DNA of 14,448 nucleotides, from the NCBI GenBank assembly GCA_016209865.1, contig JACQVL010000189.1, positions 1 to 14,448 of the forward strand. Reading direction: 5' to 3'. Below the pieces are notes generated by a model. That model was given only the letters and a program-made list of their open reading frames with translations, made no database searches and was not told where the DNA came from. Numbering within the stretch: position 1 is the first letter of the stretch; each line of letters opens with the position of its first letter. This DNA comes from Candidatus Latescibacterota bacterium (GTDB lineage: Bacteria; JAAXHH01; JACQVL01). Below, in pieces: positions 1 through 13,047 of this stretch. The translations under genes were made by a program, and so were the position numbers.

Positions 1-467
1 CCCCAGGACGACAGCAGACGACCGTCAGGAGCGAACTTGTGCACCCGCGAATTCCCGTAGCCGTCGGACACGTAGAAGACTCCATCAGACCGGACGGCCA
101 CATCGGTCGGGATGTTGAACGGACTCCCGTCTGGGTGCGGGATCCCTTTCGTCCCGACCGTCATGAGCACCTTCCCCTCTGTCGTACACTTGATCAGGAG
201 GTGCGCGTCCATGTCGACAAAATAGAGATGGTCATGCCCGTCGATCCAGAGGCCATGCGCCCTCATGAACACGTCCTCACCCCAGGCGTGTAAGAACCGG
301 CCGTCCCGGTCGAAGACGATGACCGGATGAGCGCTCCGATTGAACACGTACACCCGATCCTGCGAATCGACGACGACCGCCGGAGTCTGTGTGAACGCCC
401 ATCCGTCGGGGAGCCGGGGCCAACCCTCAGCCACTTCGTACGTGTGCAGACCTGTGCCGAGTTTCAT
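1..467 (-). CDS. NHL-repeat six-bladed beta-propeller protein (C-terminus cut by window edge)
   Basis: I translated this reading frame directly; the ATG is at 467-465 and about 155 codons are visible before the window ends, so the protein is incomplete. It reads as NHL/peptidyl-hydroxyglycine-amidating-lyase-like propeller blades. Recurrent 'V..D..DRVYVFNR', 'HGLWIDGHDHLYFVD' and 'PTDVAVRSDGVFYVSDGYG' segments alternate with 'F..DG..L..WG' turns. That last block (about residues 125-155) is the family's most typical stretch. No signal peptide is visible at this start, so it is probably cytosolic. The ATG overlaps the stop of the upstream dehydrogenase gene (ATGA), so translation is likely coupled. 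Bacterial relatives are often called lactonase-like or 6-bladed propellers, but real substrates are rarely known; a lactone or sugar-acid hydrolase role is only inferred from the neighbouring dehydrogenases. Confidence 0.8.
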   Translation of the reverse strand, partial: MKLGTGLHTYEVAEGWPRLPDGWAFTQTPAVVVDSQDRVYVFNRSAHPVIVFDRDGRFLHAWGEDVFMRAHGLWIDGHDHLYFVDMDAHLLIKCTTEGKVLMTVGTKGIPHPDGSPFNIPTDVAVRSDGVFYVSDGYGNSRVHKFAPDGRLLSSW

Positions 468-1534
468 CGTACCTGTCCCTCCTTCGTCCATGATGCCCAT
501 GTCTCACGATAACGATCGAGTTTCATCCGAAGTCCCGGCCGGTCGAGCACCGGGGTGTTGACGACGTACGGCGGCACCTCCCCGCGGGCGACGGCGAGCG
601 CGGCGTTGACACAGTCATGCCCGATATCCCGGAACAACTCATGCGTCCAGGCCAGGGCATGAGGAGCTAAGATGACGTTGTCGAGGGTGAGCAACGGATC
701 GTCCGGCGCGGGGGGTTCGACCTCGAACACGTCTAACGCCGCCCCCTGGATGCGTCCCTCTTGCAGCGCCCGTACCAGCGCCGCCTGATCGATGATCGGC
801 CCCCGCGCGGTGTTGACGAGAAACGCGGTCGGCCGCATCAGGCTCAACTCTCGCTCGCCGATCATCCCCCGCGTCTGCGGGGTCAGCGGGCAATGGATGG
901 AGACGAGGTCGCTCGTCCGCAGGAGCGTCTCCAGGTCGACCAGCTCCACGCCGAGCGCGGCGGCATCTGTCTGGTTGACCACCGGGTCAGCGGCCAGGAT
1001 TCGGGACGGCCCGAACGGACGCAGGAGGCGGACGACCTCCCGGCCGATGTGACCGACCCCGATCAGCCCGATCACCCGGTCGCGGAGCTCGCACCCGTTC
1101 CAGCGGTAGCGCTCGTTCCACCGGCCTTCGCGGACGAGTCTGTCTTTGATCCACACGCGATGACAGAGGGCTAACATCAGGGCGAGGGTCGCGCTGGCCA
1201 CCGGCCGGCGGGTGGCTTCGGGGGTGATCGTCACGATGACGTCCGCCTCCGTCGCCGCGTTCAGGTCGACCATCTCATATCCGACGCCGGTGCGCGCGAT
1301 GAGGGTCAACCGCTCGACGCCCACGAAGCTGGCCGGGACGTAGGGCTGTCCCATCGAGATGACCGCGTCGCAGTCCCGGAGCTGGCCACTCGTCACCGGG
1401 CGTTCATCGCGCGAGAAGAAAGAGTGGGGAATTCCTGCCTGTGTGAGGCCGTCAAGCCCGAAGTCCTGGAAGACCGGCTTTCCGTCCGGTCCTCGCAGAT
1501 CAGCGACCAGGGCGACACGGAAGTCAAGCGGCAT
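464..1534 (-). CDS. D-isomer-specific 2-hydroxyacid dehydrogenase (NAD-dependent)
   Basis: The 356-residue protein fits the D-2-hydroxyacid dehydrogenase / phosphoglycerate dehydrogenase-like family, which interconverts 2-oxoacids and D-2-hydroxyacids with NAD(P)H. The Rossmann motif GVGHIG is at residues 159-164, with D183 at the end of the next strand, which favours NAD. The catalytic Arg is R244 in NTARG, the Glu is E273 in the FEVEPP block, and the acid-base His is H292 in APHAL. All three active-site residues are therefore present. The ATG at 1534 has an AAGGAG ribosome site at 1547-1542 with 7-nt spacing. Its stop overlaps the start of the propeller gene downstream. The C-terminus is about 20-30 residues longer than in many homologues. 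The substrate is unknown; hydroxypyruvate, glyoxylate or sugar-acid derived 2-oxoacids are plausible from context only. Confidence 0.92.
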   Translation of the reverse strand: MPLDFRVALVADLRGPDGKPVFQDFGLDGLTQAGIPHSFFSRDERPVTSGQLRDCDAVISMGQPYVPASFVGVERLTLIARTGVGYEMVDLNAATEADVIVTITPEATRRPVASATLALMLALCHRVWIKDRLVREGRWNERYRWNGCELRDRVIGLIGVGHIGREVVRLLRPFGPSRILAADPVVNQTDAAALGVELVDLETLLRTSDLVSIHCPLTPQTRGMIGERELSLMRPTAFLVNTARGPIIDQAALVRALQEGRIQGAALDVFEVEPPAPDDPLLTLDNVILAPHALAWTHELFRDIGHDCVNAALAVARGEVPPYVVNTPVLDRPGLRMKLDRYRETWASWTKEGQVR

Positions 1535-1553
1535 GGAATGACTCCTTCGTGCT

Positions 1554-1621
1554 CACCACAAAGGCACAAAGAGCACAAAGGTATAGAAATTCTTCTTCGT
1601 GTCCTTTGTGTCTTTGTGGTG
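1554..1621. repeat. Imperfect inverted repeat of CACAAAG words between genes
   Basis: The left arm CACCACAAAGGCACAAAG (1554-1571) matches the reverse complement of 1604-1621 at 17 of 18 positions. An extra AGCACAAAG unit (1572-1580) extends the left arm. RNA from either strand would form a long hairpin, but neither side is followed by a T run, so it is not a standard intrinsic terminator. Repeats of this 'CACAAAG / CTTTGTG' kind are, from general knowledge, scattered between genes in many environmental bacterial genomes; whether this one is mobile or structural cannot be decided here. It splits the minus-strand cluster between the transporter and the dehydrogenase. Confidence 0.75.
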
Positions 1622-1640
1622 AAAAATGTTGTTCCTCTAT

Positions 1641-3632
1641 TCAAAACAAAATCTGCGACGTTGATTTGGCGATGAGCACCAACGAGACCGCCGCCATGCC
1701 GATCAACCCCAGCCCGCACCCGTACCCGGCGAGCAGGACGGGCGCGTATCCCATCCACGTTCGGTGACCGTACCGGCGGGCGAAGTAGTACCGGCCGAGC
1801 ATCGCGCCGGTGAACGTCAGGATCGTGTAATGCGGCCAGGCGCCGATCCCCCCGATCAGTCCGTAGAACAGGAGGGACGGGGCATGCAGGAGTGTCAGAA
1901 CCCCGTAGAGCGCGGCCGCCGTCGCCACGCCCGCCCCGAGGTACTCCCACCGGATGATCTGGCCGAGGACGTTCGCGCCGCCGGGGATCGTCGATTTCAC
2001 CCACAGCGTCTGCATCGTTGCCTGCAGCGGCCACATCTTCTGGACGTACGGGTAGGCGGCAGACGGGATGGGGGCGAGCTTCCAGATGAGCGAATAGAAG
2101 AGAAAGCTGAACACGACCATCAGGACGAGGCTGAGGACGGACAGACGGACGAGACTCCCAAATTTCGTCTTGGTCAACTCCAGTTGCCGGAATGTGGCCA
2201 CCGTCGCGCTGTAATCGTTCATCGGCACCGGAGCGAACCAGATCGCCGCCCCCTTGTAGCCGGACAGGTAGAACGAGCCTTCCCGCGCGTACGGGAACGA
2301 CGACCCGTACGGCGAGCCGGTGATGCCGACCATCCTGGCCCCGATGTACGAGAAGAACGGCGTCCACAGGAACCCGAACAGGGCGGAGAGCCACCAGGGG
2401 AAATCGGGGACGAGGAGGTAGACAAGATAGATGTAGCAGAGGGTGGAGAGCGTCCACAGACCGAGCGGAAGAGGCAGTCGGATGTCGCCCCGGCCGGGCG
2501 GCGGCTCGCGTGGGGCCAGCCGGTTGCCAGACTGTCCGCTCCGCCCCGCCGTCAGCGCCCGGACGGCGGAGACGAGTCCGATCACGCCGATGACGAGGGA
2601 TGTCCCGATCGACGAGAAACTCAGCCAGAAATCCACCTTGTTGTTGATGTCCGTCGGGATCGTGCTCATCCCCGGCGTCCAACTGTGGAGGATGCCTGCG
2701 TGGTACAGCAACGGGTTGGCGATGAACGTGACGAGCATCGACGAGATGAACGTCCCGACGACAATCCAGAACGGGAGGACGAACCCGGCCAAGAGGGAGG
2801 CGAGGTCGGTGCCCAGGCCGATCGGGCTGGCGGGCAGGACGGAGCGGACGCGCGGGGTGAAATCCGCGAACGGGATGGGGACGATCTCCTGGGTCTTCGT
2901 CAGGATGATGCCGGAGATCGTCGGGACGACGACGTAGATCATCCCCCACGCCATCCCGACCATCGACCCGACGGTGAACACCCGCCACCGCCAGGTCTCC
3001 GTGCCGGACGAGGATTCGGCTAAGGCGGTCGCGCCGGAGGCCTGGACCGGGGCCATGGGGAACGGGAGCCGCTCGACATCGGCGGTGACGCGGAACAGGA
3101 CGTACCCGATCGACAGGGTGCTCACCAGGCCGAGGACGGCGGCGACCAGGGCCAGGCCGACCGGTCTGACCCAGTCGGGGGACAGGAACGTGCGGTCGAT
3201 GAGCGCCACCGCCCCACGGGGCGGCACGACCCAGCCGGGGATGTATTGCGCGAGGCCGTCCGCCTGGGGGGACTGGATCAGGTACTGGTTCCAGATCATC
3301 GTCGCAAACGGCCCGCCGCTGGCCGACAGGCCGCCCGCTAACCAGTAGAGGATGATCGTCTCTTGCGGCTTGAGGCGGACGAACAACCGCTTGCTGATCT
3401 CGATGAACATGATGATCGTGACCCACTCCGCCGCTCCCGCGAAACTCTTGCCCGTCACCAGCTCCAGGTAGATCGAGCCGGGCAGCATGATCAGGCCGAC
3501 GAACAGCGCCGCCCAGACCGTCTTCACGCTGAACCCGTGCTCGTACGGCGCGTCGTCAGGGACGATGGGCGGGTGCTCTTCGCGCAGGAAATCGTCGTGA
3601 ATCGTCTCACGGCGCGGAGCGGGGGTGGACAT
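1641..3632 (-). CDS. OPT-like multi-pass membrane transporter
   Basis: This 663-residue protein is very hydrophobic, with many membrane segments (for example about 37-58, 69-86, 92-110, 157-181, 218-245, 276-308, 341-360, 390-430, 495-520, 563-600 and 628-656). A loop at about residues 185-206 reads ERLPFPMAPVQASGATAL, which resembles the conserved Pro-rich loop of the oligopeptide transporter (OPT) superfamily; the length also fits. OPT proteins import peptides, amino-acid derivatives or metal chelates, probably by proton symport. The ATG at 3632 has an AGGAGGT ribosome site 8 nt upstream. Its first 26 nt overlap the 3' end of the PLP-enzyme gene, so the two are co-transcribed and probably coupled. 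This suggests that it imports the compound the cluster processes. The family call is moderate; an unassigned permease is the alternative. Confidence 0.65.
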   Translation of the reverse strand: MSTPAPRRETIHDDFLREEHPPIVPDDAPYEHGFSVKTVWAALFVGLIMLPGSIYLELVTGKSFAGAAEWVTIIMFIEISKRLFVRLKPQETIILYWLAGGLSASGGPFATMIWNQYLIQSPQADGLAQYIPGWVVPPRGAVALIDRTFLSPDWVRPVGLALVAAVLGLVSTLSIGYVLFRVTADVERLPFPMAPVQASGATALAESSSGTETWRWRVFTVGSMVGMAWGMIYVVVPTISGIILTKTQEIVPIPFADFTPRVRSVLPASPIGLGTDLASLLAGFVLPFWIVVGTFISSMLVTFIANPLLYHAGILHSWTPGMSTIPTDINNKVDFWLSFSSIGTSLVIGVIGLVSAVRALTAGRSGQSGNRLAPREPPPGRGDIRLPLPLGLWTLSTLCYIYLVYLLVPDFPWWLSALFGFLWTPFFSYIGARMVGITGSPYGSSFPYAREGSFYLSGYKGAAIWFAPVPMNDYSATVATFRQLELTKTKFGSLVRLSVLSLVLMVVFSFLFYSLIWKLAPIPSAAYPYVQKMWPLQATMQTLWVKSTIPGGANVLGQIIRWEYLGAGVATAAALYGVLTLLHAPSLLFYGLIGGIGAWPHYTILTFTGAMLGRYYFARRYGHRTWMGYAPVLLAGYGCGLGLIGMAAVSLVLIAKSTSQILF

Positions 3633-4788
3633 GGGCAGGACCTCCTAATTCTTCCCTTAACCGCCGGGCGATGATCTCTTCCTCCCCGTCGATCAGGCAG
3701 TGGGGGTTCACTGAGATCTGACCACCGCCCCCGCCGAGCACGATGCGCGGCTCGCCGTCGTACAGCCGCTGTGCGAGTGTTTCGGCGGTCACGCCAAGCG
3801 CTCGTTCATCCAGGGTGATCACGACCCGACATGGACACTGGGCGGTGTACTCATGCTTCTCGGCGTTGGGCCGATGGATCGTACAGGACACGCCCGGATG
3901 CTCGCCGAACGCCCGGATGAACGACTGCGCCCGCCGTTCCCACGCGGCCAGATGGGCGTCGAAATCCATGCTCATGTACCGGTCGAGCGCGCACACCGTG
4001 GCGACGACATCCTCCCGGCCGACCTTCATCGAGCGTCCGATGCCGAACGGGGGGAGGACACGCATCTGGACGGTGGCTCCATCGATGAGGTCTTTCCGAC
4101 CGTACAGAATCCCGGTGTCGTTCGGTCCCTGGATATCCTTCCCCCCACTGAACGCGACGACGTCGGCGCCCATCGTGATGAACTTCCGGATGTTCTCGCG
4201 CGGCGGGGTCTCGGCCGCGGCATCGAGGATGAGCGGCAAGCCATGCCTGTGTGCTGTGCGGAGCATGACGTCCAGCGCCTCGTCGCCTTTGTTGGTATTC
4301 GCGAAGTACACGAACACCGCCGCCGCCGTGCGTTCGCCGACCGCTCTCTCGACATCGTCCGCCGTGAAGCCGTTCTCGGTCCCGACGAAGATCAACCGGG
4401 CTCCGGAGACCGCATACGACCGGTCATGGATTTGGGCGCAGACCTTCGGGATGACCACCTCGTTCTTCAACCCCGTCGTGTCCGGGAGTTGATGGTACCG
4501 GTCAGGGACCGTCCCAGCGATACAGGAGGCAGCGGCCAGACTCAGGCCCGCGTCCGCCCCTGCCGTGATCAGTCCCGCCTCCGCGCCCGTCAGCCGGGCG
4601 ATCTCACGACTCGCCGCCGCCAGTAACTCATCCATATGAACGAAGTATTTCGAGGCTTCGACCCACGCCGCGACCACGTCGGGCGGCATGATACTGCCGC
4701 CCAGGTAGCTCATCGTCCCACTCGCGTTGATGAGGGTTCGAACGCCCAGACGGTGGTACGGGTTCATTGACTTCCCGCACTGATTCAC
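3607..4788 (-). CDS. SelA-like / class V-fold PLP-dependent enzyme
   Basis: The 393-residue protein belongs to the fold-type I PLP enzymes related to SelA (L-seryl-tRNA selenium transferase) and D-glucosaminate-6-phosphate ammonia-lyase. The opening 'YHRLGVRTLINASGTMSYLG' (residues 11-30) is typical of that group. The cofactor Asp is D189 in LILDAAAE and the Schiff-base Lys is K217 in FSGGKDIQGP. With no selenocysteine genes or tRNA(Sec) in view and no SelA N-terminal tRNA-binding region, a metabolic lyase, racemase or aldolase role is more likely than selenium transfer. The GTG start at 4788 directly follows the cyclase stop, with GGAGG only 4 nt away. ATG at 4767 (residue 8) matches family N-termini better and may be the true start. 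The 3' end overlaps the transporter gene by 26 nt. Confidence 0.85.
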   Translation of the reverse strand: MNQCGKSMNPYHRLGVRTLINASGTMSYLGGSIMPPDVVAAWVEASKYFVHMDELLAAASREIARLTGAEAGLITAGADAGLSLAAASCIAGTVPDRYHQLPDTTGLKNEVVIPKVCAQIHDRSYAVSGARLIFVGTENGFTADDVERAVGERTAAAVFVYFANTNKGDEALDVMLRTAHRHGLPLILDAAAETPPRENIRKFITMGADVVAFSGGKDIQGPNDTGILYGRKDLIDGATVQMRVLPPFGIGRSMKVGREDVVATVCALDRYMSMDFDAHLAAWERRAQSFIRAFGEHPGVSCTIHRPNAEKHEYTAQCPCRVVITLDERALGVTAETLAQRLYDGEPRIVLGGGGGQISVNPHCLIDGEEEIIARRLREELGGPAHVHPRSAP

Positions 4789-6969
4789 TCATCCTCCCTT
4801 CACGCGGTAGACCTCCAGCGGGTGTTCCTTCCCCTTGACCTTCAGCGGTTCGAGCGGCTGGGCCTGGATGGCATGCCGGACCTGCTCGTACGCCGCGGCC
4901 GTAATCAAAACCTCCCCCGGTTTCGCCACGTCACACAGGCGTTTGCCCGTGTTCACCGTGTCCCCGAGAGCCGTGTAGTTCAGCCGGTCCGGGCTGCCGA
5001 CGTTGCCCACGACCGCCTCCCCGACGTTGATGCCGATCCCGACCTGACAATGTGGACTGTCCGTTTCCTCGCTCAGCCGGCCCGTCGCCGACCGGATGGC
5101 CAGCGCGCAGCGCACCGCGTTCAACGCCATGTCCTCCCCCTCGAACACCGCCATCACTTCGTCCCCGACGTATTTATCGACTTCCCCATGATACTGGGCG
5201 ATGGCCATCGCCTGCACCGTCAGGTACCGGTTGACGAGTTCGATCACCTCTTCCGGGGAGACTTTCTCGGAATACGACGTAAACCCACGGATGTCGGAGA
5301 AGAGGACGGTGATCGTCCGGCGCGTCCCGCCGAGCATCGGAGCCGCCTGTTGCTCCGCCGCCTGGGCGATGAGGTCGACGGCCGACCGCGGGACGAATTT
5401 CTCCATCTGGAGTTTGGCACGCAGGCCGGCGATCATCTCGTTGATCCGGCGGGCCAGATGCCCGATCTCGTCCCGGGACTGGATGGCGACGTGGACGGTC
5501 AGGTCCCCCTGTCCGACCTGTTCCGCGACGTTGCCGATGACCTGCACCGGCTTGACGACCGTCAGGCGGGTGAACAGAATCAGCACGCCGCACGCCGCCA
5601 AGGTCGTGATGAGGGCGGTGATGAGGGAGAGACGGCGGTTGCGTTGGATGGCTTGTTGCGTTTCATCCAGCGAGATCGTCGTCTCGACGACCGCCCGGTA
5701 GATATGATCCGCCCCGTGGCAGCCCTGGCACTTCTCCTCGTTGGAGATGACTGTGAACTGGACGAGCTGGTTGTGTGTGGTGTCGATGATCGTCGCGTCC
5801 AGGCCCGTCCGGAACGCGTCCTGGACGGCAGGTGGGGATGGAGCGGTCGGACTGGTGCTCTTCTCGCCGGCGAACACCTCTTCCGCGCTCGGGTTGAAGA
5901 CATGGAGGGCGGCGACTCCCTCGATGTCCCGGTACTGCTCGACGAGGCGGAAGCCGAACACCCCCTTCCCGGTCAGCATCAGCGTCTTGATCCCCAGCCC
6001 GATGCCCTGGCTGAGGAGGGCGGGCTGGAGGGCTTCTATGCGGGCCGCCGGATCGCCGGACTTGGACACCGAGGTCGCCAGGGCGAGCACCCCGCGCGAG
6101 GGGCCTGCATCAGTATGACACCGGCTGCATTTTTCGTCATGCGGGAACGACGAGAGCGACGTGACGGTGCGCGTCGAGTCGGTCTCCGTGACGACCATTC
6201 CCGGTTCGCCCGTTCTCGCCGCCTGTCCGGCTTGCGCCGTCACCGCTCCGGCGTCCGGCACACGCCCGACGGTGTACCGCTTCTGCAGGGTGGGATCGAA
6301 CAAGACCGCTCCGGACAACCCCTGGATCGTCGTCAGCCGTGTGAGGTACGTCGTCAGAGAATCCCCTCCCTGAGCGAGCATCTGGTACGTGATCGTCTCC
6401 CTGATGACTCTCGCTACGGCGGCCGTGGTCGAGTCCTGCACCGCCTGCCAGGAGACGCTGGCGGGGGCGTTGGGTCGTTCCGTCGTCAGCATGACCGCGC
6501 CCCGGAAGTCCTCTCCCTGCGTATGGCATACCCGGCACGCTCGTTCGTTGGGCAGCGGTTGAATCTGGGTGACGCGCCGTGTCGTGCCCTCGGTCTCGAC
6601 GTAGCGAGTCTGTGCCGTCTGGTCATTCAACACCCTGACCACCCGCTGATCACCCGACATCAAGCGCATGTTGGGGTCGGACGGTTTATAGATCTCCTGA
6701 CCATCTTTATCGTAGATGCGCAGACTCGCCCACTTCTGGGAGCGACGGACGTCGTCCAGCAGGTTCGCCAGGAGAGGGCCGTCCCCGGCTAACATCGCGT
6801 TGCGGAGGGTGGCGGTAAACGAGGAAACGAGGCTGTTCGCCCGTTCCTCAGCCTGCTGCATGAGGGTATCGGTCTGGCGGCGGACGCTCAACGTGACCAG
6901 CGCGCCGAACCCGGCGATCAACGTCAAGATGATCAGTCCGACGACTTTGATGGACAGACTGGTGCGCAC
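4789..6969 (-). CDS. Membrane class IIIb nucleotidyl cyclase with three CxxCH haem-c motifs and HAMP domain
   Basis: The 726 residues read as a transmembrane sensor cyclase that should make cAMP. Membrane helix 1 spans about 7-28 and helix 2 about 447-467, enclosing some 415 extracytoplasmic residues. These carry C145xxC148H149, C281xxC284H285 and C414xxC417H418, each followed by an Arg (RG or RA) about seven residues later and spaced 136 and 133 residues apart. A HAMP domain (about 468-522) leads to the catalytic domain (about 550-725). Visible catalytic residues are metal-binding D559 (FSDIRGF) and D603 (VGDEV), base-selecting K599 and T666 (YTALGD), and transition-state N673 and R677. The K/T pair marks class IIIb, usually adenylyl and sometimes bicarbonate-responsive. 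CxxCH outside the membrane implies covalent haem c, so redox or a diatomic gas is a likely signal (inference). It starts with GTG at 6969, with a weak GAGAG ribosome site. Confidence 0.93.
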   Translation of the reverse strand: MRTSLSIKVVGLIILTLIAGFGALVTLSVRRQTDTLMQQAEERANSLVSSFTATLRNAMLAGDGPLLANLLDDVRRSQKWASLRIYDKDGQEIYKPSDPNMRLMSGDQRVVRVLNDQTAQTRYVETEGTTRRVTQIQPLPNERACRVCHTQGEDFRGAVMLTTERPNAPASVSWQAVQDSTTAAVARVIRETITYQMLAQGGDSLTTYLTRLTTIQGLSGAVLFDPTLQKRYTVGRVPDAGAVTAQAGQAARTGEPGMVVTETDSTRTVTSLSSFPHDEKCSRCHTDAGPSRGVLALATSVSKSGDPAARIEALQPALLSQGIGLGIKTLMLTGKGVFGFRLVEQYRDIEGVAALHVFNPSAEEVFAGEKSTSPTAPSPPAVQDAFRTGLDATIIDTTHNQLVQFTVISNEEKCQGCHGADHIYRAVVETTISLDETQQAIQRNRRLSLITALITTLAACGVLILFTRLTVVKPVQVIGNVAEQVGQGDLTVHVAIQSRDEIGHLARRINEMIAGLRAKLQMEKFVPRSAVDLIAQAAEQQAAPMLGGTRRTITVLFSDIRGFTSYSEKVSPEEVIELVNRYLTVQAMAIAQYHGEVDKYVGDEVMAVFEGEDMALNAVRCALAIRSATGRLSEETDSPHCQVGIGINVGEAVVGNVGSPDRLNYTALGDTVNTGKRLCDVAKPGEVLITAAAYEQVRHAIQAQPLEPLKVKGKEHPLEVYRVKGG

Positions 6970-6983
6970 GGGCAGACTCTCTT

Positions 6984-7017
6984 TTCCTGACCCCTGATTC
7001 CTGACCCCTGACCCCTG
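6984..7017. repeat. Perfect 14-bp tandem repeat upstream of the cyclase gene
   Basis: TTCCTGACCCCTGA occurs twice with no gap (6984-6997 and 6998-7011), followed by a partial copy CCCCTG (7012-7017). It fills most of the 55-nt spacer between the oxidoreductase and the cyclase and lies just upstream of the cyclase ribosome site. Its role is unknown. It could be a slippage-prone spacer or a member of a dispersed genomic repeat. Confidence 0.85.
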
Positions 7018-7024
7018 TGTTGCC

Positions 7025-8077
7025 TCACACCGTCTCCACCTTCCCCGACACGGTGGACCGGTACGCCGCGTCTAACAGCAGCACCGACCGCATCGCCGCC
7101 TCGCCGGGCGCGAAGTTCGTCGTCGTCTTGCCGAGGATGAGGTCGACGAAGTTGTTGGGCGGGCCCTCACAACTGTACGCCCCGGCGTCCGGGGCGAGGT
7201 CGAGCACCACGTCCTGCTTGTCATGACGATGGAGCGCCAGCCGCGCGCGCTCGCAGTCGAGCAGGAGCATGCCCTCCGACCCGAACACTTTGATGTCGAC
7301 CTGGTAAGTCTGGCCGTCCGGCACCGTGCCCGCCCCGGAGACCGTCCCGATCGCCCCGCCCTCGAACCGCACGGTGATCGCATCGTACATCTCCACGCGC
7401 GACTCGGAGGCCGCCATCATAGCGAACACCTGGTGCGGGACGAGGCCGGTCAGCCAGCCGAGCATCCCGATGCTGTGGGAGAGCTGGGCGTGTCCGTACC
7501 CGCCGCCCGCCACGGCCGGGTCGGCCCAGGTCGCCGGGTCGGGCTCGAACATCATCTCCCCGTACTGAAACTTCTGGCCGCGCAGGAGGGTGCGGATGGG
7601 TGAGGCCATGTGGCAGACGATCGACTCGACCCGGCCGAGCAGTCCCGCATCGACGAGCCGCTTCGCCTCCTGGACGAACGGCCTGTAATGCCAGCCGTAC
7701 GGGACGAGGAGATGGAGGCGGCGCTCGTCCACCAACCGGACGAGGTCGCGGGCGTCCGCCGCACGCGTACACATCGGCTTCTCGACCATCACGTGGAGGC
7801 CCCGCTCCAGCGCCGCGCGGGCGTGTTCGTGATGGAGCGTGTGAGGACTGGTCACGACCACGCCGTCCAGTTCGACCTCGTCCAGGAGCGCCCGGTAGTC
7901 TTCGGTGGCGTACGGGAACCCGAACCGTTCCTTCACCTGCTGGAGTTCGTCCTTCCCCAGGCGGCAGACCGCCCGGAGTTCCACATCCGGCCGGCTCTTG
8001 AGGATGGGGAGATGATTCGCGGTCGCCCACCATCCGGCCCCGATAAACCCGATCCGCGCGACTGTCTTCGCTGCCAT
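7025..8077 (-). CDS. Gfo/Idh/MocA family oxidoreductase
   Basis: The 350-residue protein matches this family of NAD(P)-dependent sugar, inositol and sugar-acid dehydrogenases in length and layout. The nucleotide-binding loop is GAGWWA (residues 13-18), with the usual third Gly replaced by Ala as in many members. The hallmark EKP is at residues 99-101, where the Lys contacts cofactor and substrate. The C-terminal half (about 125-350) forms the substrate-binding sheet, with a GGGYGHAQLSHSIG segment probably lining the pocket. It has no signal peptide and is cytosolic. The ATG at 8077 has GGAGG 9 nt upstream. It is the second gene of the minus-strand cluster, between a propeller protein and the haem cyclase. 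The substrate is not readable; context suggests a cyclic polyol, sugar or derivative. Confidence 0.92.
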   Translation of the reverse strand: MAAKTVARIGFIGAGWWATANHLPILKSRPDVELRAVCRLGKDELQQVKERFGFPYATEDYRALLDEVELDGVVVTSPHTLHHEHARAALERGLHVMVEKPMCTRAADARDLVRLVDERRLHLLVPYGWHYRPFVQEAKRLVDAGLLGRVESIVCHMASPIRTLLRGQKFQYGEMMFEPDPATWADPAVAGGGYGHAQLSHSIGMLGWLTGLVPHQVFAMMAASESRVEMYDAITVRFEGGAIGTVSGAGTVPDGQTYQVDIKVFGSEGMLLLDCERARLALHRHDKQDVVLDLAPDAGAYSCEGPPNNFVDLILGKTTTNFAPGEAAMRSVLLLDAAYRSTVSGKVETV

Positions 8078-8098
8078 TGTAGTGTCCCTCCAAAAAGC

Positions 8099-8171
8099 AA
8101 GGACGAAGTACGAAGGACAAAGTGCGAAGAAGCTGTTCCTAATCCCCCTTCGTCCTTAATCCTTCGTCCTT
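8099..8171. repeat. Imperfect inverted repeat of AAGGACGAAG words
   Basis: The 24-nt arm at 8099-8122 matches the reverse complement of 8148-8171 at 20 of 24 positions, with a 25-nt loop. Each arm is itself built of two near-copies of CTTCGTCCTT, and a further TAGTCCTT follows on the right. It occupies the 99-nt spacer between the short propeller gene and the oxidoreductase gene, ending just before the propeller stop codon. There is no T run on the minus-strand exit side, so strong intrinsic termination is not expected. It is similar in style, though not in exact sequence, to the repeat at 1554-1621. Confidence 0.75.
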
Positions 8172-8176
8172 AGTCC

Positions 8177-8809
8177 TTATCTTTCTCGTTCCCCGCGATA
8201 GATCGCCCGCGTGTCCGCGTCGCCGACCCAGAAGGTCCCTTGCCAGACGGTGAACCCGTGCGGCTCCGGCCCGTCAATCCCGATCCGATCCAGGATCGCG
8301 CCGGTAGACGGGTCGAGCAGGTACACCGCCCGGTGGTTCGTCTCCACACACCACAGCCGGCCGTTCTCCCAGGCCAGGCCGTGCGGCCGGGTGCCGGGCG
8401 CCGGGATGGCATGCCGGATCGTCCAGTCCGCCGGGTCGATCTGATAGATCGTGGCCGCGGGCGGGACGGCCATCCACAAGAGGCCATCGACCCATTCGAG
8501 GCCGTGGGCGCCGGTTGTCGTCGTCCCCGGCGTGGAGTAGGCCGCCAGGGTGGCGCCTGTCTGGGGATCGCACTGGAGGATCTCCCGGCTGTACGTCGAC
8601 GCGATCCACAGATGCGTGCCGCTGTTCGTGATCCCGCTGGGACGATCCGCCCCGGTGTCGAGGACGCCCCGGACGACGCCGTCCTCGAACCGCACACAGC
8701 TCGCCTGGTTCGTCCCCTGGTCGATGATCCACAGCCCGTCCGTCGTCGCCTGGAGCCCGTTCGGATGAGGGCCTGGCGATTCGAACGCTTTCACCAACCG
8801 TATGCGCAT
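8177..8809 (-). CDS. Short five-repeat beta-propeller protein (SMP-30/Vgb/NHL-like)
   Basis: This 210-residue protein has five roughly 43-residue repeats and little else. Each begins like HPNGL, RPSGI, GAHGL, RPHGL or EPHGF, continues with a 'G.LW' strand, and ends with a turn such as DPQTG or DPSTG. This is the layout of SMP-30/virginiamycin-lyase-like (Vgb) or glutamine-cyclotransferase-like propellers, which normally have six or seven blades and about 270-300 residues. It is therefore unusually small: a five-bladed propeller, a reduced form or a dimer-completed ring. No signal peptide is seen. The ATG at 8809 has GGAGG 6 nt upstream and a good promoter in front, making it the first gene of the cluster. 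The hydrolase or binding function is unknown; Vgb-type His residues are suggested by the PHG motifs but not proven. Confidence 0.82.
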   Translation of the reverse strand: MRIRLVKAFESPGPHPNGLQATTDGLWIIDQGTNQASCVRFEDGVVRGVLDTGADRPSGITNSGTHLWIASTYSREILQCDPQTGATLAAYSTPGTTTTGAHGLEWVDGLLWMAVPPAATIYQIDPADWTIRHAIPAPGTRPHGLAWENGRLWCVETNHRAVYLLDPSTGAILDRIGIDGPEPHGFTVWQGTFWVGDADTRAIYRGERER

Positions 8810-10971: not shown

Positions 10972-13047
10972 ATGAGAGCAACACGGCATGTGGCGTGGCT
11001 GGTGCTGTCCTGCGTGATACTCCTGTGGAGGAGTCCGGAGGCTCAGACGATCACCGCGTCCCGGGGGAAGACGCTCTCAGGACACTTGCTGTATGTCTTG
11101 CCCGTCACGTTCAGTCCGGATAGCCGGCTGGTCGCCAGCGGGAGCATGGATGAGACGATCCGGCTGTGGACGGTCGATAAGGGAAAGGCTCTCCGCACCC
11201 TCAAGGGACACTCGAACTGGGTGATGGGGGTGGCGTTCAGCCCGGACGGCACGCGGCTGGCCAGTGGGAGTCTGGATGAGACGATCCGGCTGTGGACGGT
11301 CGATAAGGGAAAGGCTCTCCGCACCCTCAAGGGACACTCGAAAGGAGTGACATCCGTCGCGTTCAGCCCGGATGGGAAGCTCCTCGCCAGCGGGAGTCTG
11401 GATGCCTCTATCATCCTGTGGTCGGCGGACACCGGCCAGGCTCTCAGGACGCTGTCAGGCCATGTGAAGGGAGTGACATCCGTCGCGTTCAGCCCGGATG
11501 GCCGGTTCTTAGCGAGTAGCAGCATGGATGAAACCGTCATCCTGTGGTCGATGGAGACCGGTCAGGCGCTGAGAATCCTCCGGGGCCATTCGGATGAGGT
11601 GACGTCAGTGGCGTTCAGTCCGGACGGCACGCGGCTGGCCAGTGGGAGTCTGGATAAGACGATCGTCCTGTGGTCGATCCAGGTGGATCAACCCCCCCGG
11701 ACGTTGACCGGCCATGCGGATGGGGTCCGCACGGCGGCATTCAGTCCGGATGGGCAATGGCTGGCCAGTGGGAGTCTGGATAAGACGATCGTCCTGTGGT
11801 CGGTGGACACCGGCCAGGCCCTCACCACCCTGCGCGGGCATGGGGACGTGATTCGCGCGGTGGCGTTCAGCCCGGACGGGGCGTGGCTGGCCAGCGGGAG
11901 CGGGGACACCACAGTGAGACTCTGGGCGCTCGAAGGGGTGGGGAAGCGGGTCGTCGTCGAAGCGCCCCCGGCGCAGCCCCCGAGCCCCATCCAGGTCACG
12001 ACGCCGGTGCAGGTGTCAACCCCCATTCAGGTCGCCACCCCGATCCAGCCATCCTCTCAGCCTTCGGCCCCCGTCCAACCGCTATCCCCAACGCCGGCTC
12101 CATCCCCGCCCCAGGCACCCCCCACGCCCCTTCCTCCGGCGCGTACCGTCGCGATCGAGCAGTGGCAAACCCTGTCCGGGCACTCCTCGTATGTCATGAC
12201 GGTGGCGTTCAGTCCGGATGGAAAGCGGTTAGCCAGCGGGAGCGATGACCGCACGGTCGCGCTCTGGTCGGTGGACACCGGCCTGGTCCTCCGGAGACTC
12301 ACCGGCCATACGAACCGTATCGAGTCGGTGGCGTTCAGCCCGGACGGGAAGCTCTTAGCCAGCGGGAGTTGGGATAAGACGATCAAACTCTGGTCGGTGG
12401 ACACCGGCCAGACGCTCAGAACCCTAATCGGTCATACAGACGTGGTCAGGTCGGTGGCGTTCAGTCCGGACGGCAAGTGGCTGGCCAGCGGGAGTTGGGA
12501 CATGACGGTCAAATTGTGGCTGGCAGGGACCGGCCAACCGTTCGGCACCCTGGCGGGCCATACGGATGTGGTGACGTGCGTCGCCTTCAGCCCGGATGGG
12601 AAGGTTGTAGCCAGCGGGAGTATGGATCGCACCATCAAGCTCTGGTCGACGGAGACGGGACAGGAACTCAAGACCCTGGTGGGACACGCCGGGGAGGTGT
12701 ACACGGTGGCGTTCAGCCCGGACGGGAAGCTCTTAGCCAGCGGGAGTTGGGACAAGACGATCAAGCTCTGGTCGGTGGACACCGGCCAGACGCTCAAGAC
12801 GTTGACCGGCCATTCGGATCGCGTTGAGTCTATAGCCTTCACTCACGACGGCACGCAGTTAGTGAGTGGGAGCAACGATACGACCGTGGCGCTCTGGTCG
12901 GTCGAAATCGGCCAGATGCTCGGCATGAGCCGGGGGCAGTCGCATTGGGTGATGTCGGTGGCGTGCAGCCCGGATGGCACGCGGTTGGCTAGCGGGAGCT
13001 GGGATAAGACGATCATCCTGTGGACGGTGAAGAAAACGGGGTTATAA
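10972..13047 (+). CDS. Exported WD40 protein with two seven-bladed propellers
   Basis: The 691-residue protein contains 14 WD40 repeats, each 42 residues (126 nt), with the pattern H..V..VAFSPDG..LASGS.D.T..LW. The first seven start at H38, 80, 122, 164, 206, 248 and 290; the second seven start at H404, 446, 488, 530, 572 and 614 and Q656. Residues 323-403 form a proline-rich linker with repeated 'TPIQV' units. So two complete seven-bladed rings are predicted on a flexible tether. The N-terminus is basic then hydrophobic (about 1-25), a likely export signal. C14 after VLS could instead be a lipid-anchor Cys, although that lipobox is imperfect. Such proteins act as binding scaffolds; no enzyme domain is present. 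The ribosome site GCGAGAGG lies 8 nt before the ATG. The partner is unknown. Confidence 0.95.
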   Translation: MRATRHVAWLVLSCVILLWRSPEAQTITASRGKTLSGHLLYVLPVTFSPDSRLVASGSMDETIRLWTVDKGKALRTLKGHSNWVMGVAFSPDGTRLASGSLDETIRLWTVDKGKALRTLKGHSKGVTSVAFSPDGKLLASGSLDASIILWSADTGQALRTLSGHVKGVTSVAFSPDGRFLASSSMDETVILWSMETGQALRILRGHSDEVTSVAFSPDGTRLASGSLDKTIVLWSIQVDQPPRTLTGHADGVRTAAFSPDGQWLASGSLDKTIVLWSVDTGQALTTLRGHGDVIRAVAFSPDGAWLASGSGDTTVRLWALEGVGKRVVVEAPPAQPPSPIQVTTPVQVSTPIQVATPIQPSSQPSAPVQPLSPTPAPSPPQAPPTPLPPARTVAIEQWQTLSGHSSYVMTVAFSPDGKRLASGSDDRTVALWSVDTGLVLRRLTGHTNRIESVAFSPDGKLLASGSWDKTIKLWSVDTGQTLRTLIGHTDVVRSVAFSPDGKWLASGSWDMTVKLWLAGTGQPFGTLAGHTDVVTCVAFSPDGKVVASGSMDRTIKLWSTETGQELKTLVGHAGEVYTVAFSPDGKLLASGSWDKTIKLWSVDTGQTLKTLTGHSDRVESIAFTHDGTQLVSGSNDTTVALWSVEIGQMLGMSRGQSHWVMSVACSPDGTRLASGSWDKTIILWTVKKTGL
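11147..11342 (+). repeat. Identical 70-bp stretch in adjacent WD40 blades 1 and 2
   Basis: Bases 11147-11216 and 11273-11342 are identical over 70 nt, offset by exactly one 126-nt blade unit. Identity that includes synonymous positions indicates recent duplication or gene conversion between neighbouring blades. Confidence 0.9.
12326..12796 (+). repeat. Near-identical 93-bp stretch in WD40 blades 9 and 12
   Basis: Bases 12326-12418 and 12704-12796 (offset 378 nt, three blade units) differ at only two sites (12375/12753 and 12387/12765), both synonymous (GAT/GAC and AAA/AAG). This points to a recent exchange or duplication inside the second propeller. Confidence 0.9.

Follow-up and report, generated by a model that had tools for sequence, protein, structure and literature searches.

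The DNA analysed here, a window of 14,448 nucleotides that forms one contig of a Candidatus Latescibacterota genome (356 contigs, 83% complete), encodes what is probably an inner-membrane adenylate cyclase of class IIIb in which the usual single periplasmic haem-c Cache domain (sCache_heme), joined to the catalytic domain through a transmembrane (TM) segment and a HAMP domain, has been tripled in tandem, so that the state of the haems would set cAMP output. From its N to its C terminus the 726-residue protein carries TM1, three tandem haem-c modules, TM2, a HAMP domain and a class III cyclase domain, the two membrane segments being the strong ones in its hydropathy profile:

4789..6969, minus strand: open reading frame of the triple haem-c sensor adenylate cyclase (726 aa, GTG start, stop at 4789-4791)
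6889..6957, minus strand: TM1, about residues 5-27, at a Kyte-Doolittle peak
5569..5631, minus strand: TM2, about residues 447-467, at a Kyte-Doolittle peak
5419..5568, minus strand: HAMP domain, residues 468-517 (Pfam PF00672, E 5e-12)
4801..5316, minus strand: class III cyclase catalytic domain, residues 552-723 (PF00211 Guanylate_cyc, E 3.4e-22; CyaB 3r5g, E 2.8e-27)

An initial annotation of this DNA had described a complete HAMP-cyclase of class IIIb, and both parts of that description hold, with Pfam finding the HAMP and Guanylate_cyc domains at the E values listed and alignment with CyaB (3r5g) recovering every residue sought: D559 and D603, which bind the metals, K599 and T666, which select adenine in the IIIb pattern, and N673 and R677. 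At the positions of K599 and T666, 2w01, which we take to be the guanylyl-type Cya2, has E and G. The K/T pair predicts ATP as the substrate and cAMP, rather than cGMP, as the product, and some of the proteins behind the 13 cNMP-binding-domain matches in the source genome could act as cAMP readers.

Between TM1 and TM2, the three modules follow one another directly:

6466..6840, minus strand: R1, first PF21563/sCache_heme module, residues 44-168 (PF21563 E 2.7e-12; 3b47 E 2e-9, 3b42 E 3e-6)
6058..6465, minus strand: R2, second PF21563/sCache_heme module, residues 169-304 (PF21563 E 0.001 alone; its AF2 model matches 3b42/3b47)
5632..6057, minus strand: R3, third and membrane-proximal PF21563/sCache_heme module, residues 305-446 (PF21563 E 4.1e-7; the haem domain of the single-haem cyclase L011 aligns here)

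Pfam matches the whole protein to PF21563, "Mcp40H-20_sensor", in three stretches (E 5e-24); this domain was recently renamed sCache_heme, and its family, sCache_heme (DUF3365/Tll0287), is treated in the text of a 2026 preprint (Deshpande et al., 2026; PMC12889525). Searched singly, R1 and R3 both exceed the PF21563 cut-off, and R2, one of the three whole-protein stretches, scores 19.8 bits, under the 27-bit cut-off. An iterated profile of family members, with the repeats themselves included, finds each of the three with an E value of roughly 1e-25 or lower, and R2 matches the profile of alignment A1, of which it is itself part, at 3.8e-44. Direct comparison points the same way, the pairs among R1, R2 and R3 scoring 20.6, 16.2 and 14.4 bits in phmmer against best values of 13.0, 12.4 and 13.9 bits from about 1,970 shuffles with CxxCH held in place; the R2-R3 pair, at 14.4 bits versus 13.9, is by itself marginally above chance, and the profile evidence for homology of the repeats is, at the level of sequence, stronger than these pairwise scores.

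Structure prediction for the weakest copy agrees with the profiles. R2, the sole module modelled on its own, gave an AF2 model with pLDDT 75.7 from an alignment of four rows, with secondary structure in the order H-H-E-E-H-E-E-(CxxCH helix)-E, where CxxCH sits in a short helix (110-114) ahead of strand 122-133, as an insert that precedes the final strand of the Cache fold. The top Foldseek matches of this model are 3b42 and 3b47 (E 9e-6 and 3e-4, probability 1.00), on which its rigid superposition is poor, as expected if the chains are domain-swapped; next among extracytoplasmic sensors comes the WalK sCache domain, which leads when alignments are ranked by structural Z. R2 is thus modelled as folding like 3B42/3B47. 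A full-length model built from a two-row alignment (pLDDT 39.5) was discarded and gives no arrangement of the modules. Profile matches, phmmer scores above those of shuffles and the best solved matches of the R2 model together place all three modules, as predicted domains, in PF21563/sCache_heme, the family of the haem-c domains of Geobacter GSU0582 and GSU0935. The initial annotation had proposed a haem module of about 130 residues triplicated in tandem, for which similarity between the segments should be detectable; it is, and sequence profiles, a conserved column of distal ligands and the model of the middle copy agree on the triplication.

The haem sites themselves lie at matching positions in the three modules:

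6523..6537, minus strand: first CxxCH (CRVCH), residues 145-149, in R1
6115..6129, minus strand: second CxxCH (CSRCH), residues 281-285, in R2
5716..5730, minus strand: third CxxCH (CQGCH), residues 414-418, in R3
6793..6795, minus strand: M59 in R1, equivalent by alignment column to the axial Met60 of GSU0935
6379..6381, minus strand: M197 in R2, equivalent to Met60 by alignment column
5977..5979, minus strand: M331 in R3, equivalent to Met60 by alignment column

The motifs start at residues 145, 281 and 414, giving the gaps of 136 and 133 that had been reported, and the protein has no others; the Arg described as lying about seven residues further on is found exactly 7 past each haem His (R156, R292 and R425). 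Every copy also has a distal Met, a feature that the initial annotation had overlooked. Of the 64 aligned rows, 52 have M in the Met60 column, the most Met-rich of the alignment, and all three repeats have it there. The first haem Cys comes 86, 84 and 83 residues after the distal Met in the M59, M197 and M331 copies, versus 80 in GSU0935. Residue counts along chain 3b42, taken from its alignment with R1, put Met60 of GSU0935 opposite M59; in that chain M26 lies 80 residues ahead of the haem Cys, the same gap as from Met60 to Cys140. In GSU0935 the reduced haem has Met60 as its distal ligand, which comes off when the haem is oxidised and gives way to NO or CO, and both GSU0582 and GSU0935 show redox-linked Met release and displacement by NO/CO (PMC8396549); sCache_heme domains fused to signalling outputs have the properties of NO sensors, according to the text of PMC12889525. 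As each module has its own CxxCH and its own distal Met, the three predicted haem sites look complete and of the redox/NO type. Two profile matches above cut-off in the source genome represent cytochrome c assembly, so the maturation proteins whose absence would have spoken against covalent haem are encoded alongside the cyclase, and the DNA of this genome also contains many clustered CxxCH-like matches. Overall, what the initial annotation observed is confirmed, and its interpretation is supported.

These conserved residues bear on two other ways of reading the array. The modules have the Cache fold, whose domains mostly bind small ligands and use no cofactor, and the highest-Z structural alignments include WalK-type sCache and CitA, so the signal might be a small ligand in the Cache pocket, with the haems as structural or redox bystanders. 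We regard this as clearly unlikely, since the most conserved Met column is that of the distal Met, which points to a haem-centred function, and relatives with CxxCH carry covalent haem and respond through its ligation (PMC8396549; text of PMC12889525). Far less probable still is that the triple array is an artefact of assembly or frame, or a decaying pseudogene, an idea to which the fragmented and incomplete source genome and the failure to find other triple genes lend something: no stop codon interrupts the reading frame, ligands and catalytic residues are intact, and the repeats are about 16-27% identical in alignment A1, which makes repeat misassembly impossible and indicates that, judged from their sequences, the repeats are old.

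In the mechanism that we favour, modelled on characterised relatives, each haem would be ligated by His and Met when reduced, and the Met would be released on oxidation or displaced by NO or CO; its loss would rearrange the N-terminal helices of the Cache fold, and the change in membrane-proximal R3 would travel via TM2 and HAMP into the cyclase homodimer, altering cAMP synthesis. By this analogy we infer redox or gas control of cAMP by the cyclase. More speculatively, R1 and R2 would add haem sites whose potentials or ligand affinities probably differ, and these might broaden or fix the range of the response or pass electrons to and from R3. Three haems per polypeptide (six per dimer) that differ in potential or gas affinity and feed one cAMP output would make a graded or multi-threshold sensor of periplasmic redox state or NO, a proposal we offer tentatively and hold to be rather unlikely. 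A natural three-haem array on a cAMP-forming enzyme would lend itself to asking how several haem sites merge into one signal, and whether serial sensor modules broaden the potentials or ligand levels that a cell reads.

The history of the repeats gives R3 a special place. In both trees R3 tends to group with L011, inside a set dominated by cyclase sensors, and R1 and R2 fall outside it, with moderate support, long branches and a short domain; R2 has a long branch and is the most diverged copy. Under the same limits of long branches and a short domain, a topology that joins the three repeats in one clade was not rejected (p-AU 0.275), and one that joins the three repeats and all cyclase sensors in one clade was (p-AU 0.010). 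It is plausible that R3 is ancestral, descended from a single-haem cyclase, and that R1 and R2 were gained by duplication or fusion. Such a history would suit an enzyme in which only R3 senses, with R1 and R2 serving as haem-carrying spacers or relaying electrons between cytochromes of the periplasm and R3, and lacking a sensory role of their own: R3 adjoins TM2, the single-haem cyclase L011 aligns at R3 and onward through TM2, HAMP and cyclase, and R2, which falls below threshold when searched alone, has diverged far enough that it might be functionally degenerate. We nonetheless doubt this reading, as R1 and R2 have both kept CxxCH, the distal Met and the Arg at +7, though their divergence would have allowed the loss of ligands that were not needed.

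The gene for the predicted sensor cyclase lies in a run of genes on one strand, metabolic genes among them. Six genes share the minus strand across 464-8809, encoding a Vgb-lyase-like propeller, a GFO/IDH/MocA oxidoreductase, the haem cyclase, a DgaE-like PLP ammonia lyase, a membrane protein and a 2-hydroxyacid dehydrogenase, of which the GFO/IDH/MocA oxidoreductase lies upstream of the cyclase and the DgaE-like PLP enzyme, the polytopic membrane protein and the 2-hydroxyacid dehydrogenase lie downstream. The longest open reading frame of the PLP gene starts directly after the cyclase stop, so the cyclase and the catabolic genes may be co-transcribed. The predicted polytopic membrane protein of this run (1641-3632, minus strand, 663 aa) matches nothing in NCBIfam or in Pfam (best E there 2.4) and by eye resembles an OPT-like transporter. 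Short direct repeats with the unit AGGGGTC occupy about 6972-7020 of the window, just upstream of the cyclase start codon. Elsewhere, the plus strand at 10972-13047 encodes 691 residues with 14 WD40 repeats, a series that a proline-rich linker divides, and a TypA/BipA gene lies next to it.

The genome searches, which covered 898 genomes in all, part of them with the sensor profile, and from which part of the matches was fetched, indicate that the tandem triplication is unusual and that the one-haem version is not rare. Among the fetched loci we recognised 38 other genes for one-haem sensor cyclases, including L011 (from a Spirochaetes genome), L114, L041 and L057; L011 and L114 have a single haem and the same TM-HAMP-cyclase layout. 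About 100 other domain-bearing proteins in the fetched loci yielded no second PF21563 copy in Pfam, a profile that can overlook a weak second copy and in one search overlooked R2 itself, and a second tandem protein, three-copy orthologues included, was not found in the five genome samples where it was sought. The triple-haem cyclase is the only protein found with the sensor domain in its source genome, and a plasmid search matched, among the matches listed, only the HAMP-cyclase part. Four loci (L049, L052, L054 and L060) were rejected as tandem-copy relatives, their two CxxCH motifs, about 37-40 residues apart, lying within one PF21563 domain; they may be a variant in which a single Cache module holds two haems. 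Four others (L078, L081, L086 and L090, from the class of genome G323) carry Lys where the distal Met would stand (ELKMKGD), which suggests another haem ligation in this sub-group.

The initial annotation had also held that a three-haem sensor on a cyclase was not well described. That judgement survives for the triplication alone, because the module belongs to a named family (PF21563/sCache_heme) and cyclases fused to one such haem module are common and have been listed before, in a figure legend of PMC12889525. In the text of that preprint the word "tandem" is absent and the architecture section describes no multi-copy array, and our literature search for a tandem haem-c sensor cyclase returned nothing beyond it. 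Within one phylum, that of genome G100, the single-haem sCache_heme-cyclase is widespread: the domain profile matches 52 of 95 genomes, and all 29 new loci fetched (L123-L151) are cyclases, which suggests a conserved redox/NO-cAMP system in this phylum. Haem-c Cache domains have only recently been recognised as a class of redox/NO sensor outside the cytoplasm. With one-haem cyclases widespread in at least one phylum, redox/NO-controlled cAMP would be a broader theme than work on chemoreceptors had suggested.

Among named systems, the closest to each module are the Geobacter sulfurreducens chemoreceptors GSU0582 and GSU0935 (3B47 and 3B42; PF21563), which are homologous to it, share the position of CxxCH and the distal Met60, and have in common with the triple-haem cyclase a TM-sensor-TM-HAMP layout; they have one haem domain and a chemotaxis output, whereas here there are three domains and a cyclase output. 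The two-CxxCH transducers GSU0591 and GSU0599, and DcrA, are likewise haem-c signal transducers (PMC8396549), with other outputs; placed beside the cyclase by their description, they may or may not carry tandem PF21563 copies. The nearest relatives as whole proteins are the 38 single-haem sCache_heme-HAMP-class III cyclases (L011, L114 and L057 among them), whose domain order downstream of the sensor is identical and of which L011 is 36% identical to the triple-haem cyclase over the aligned part. Those enzymes have one module of about 130 residues, in contrast to the three of the cyclase described here, which therefore stands outside a class defined by exactly one sensor module.
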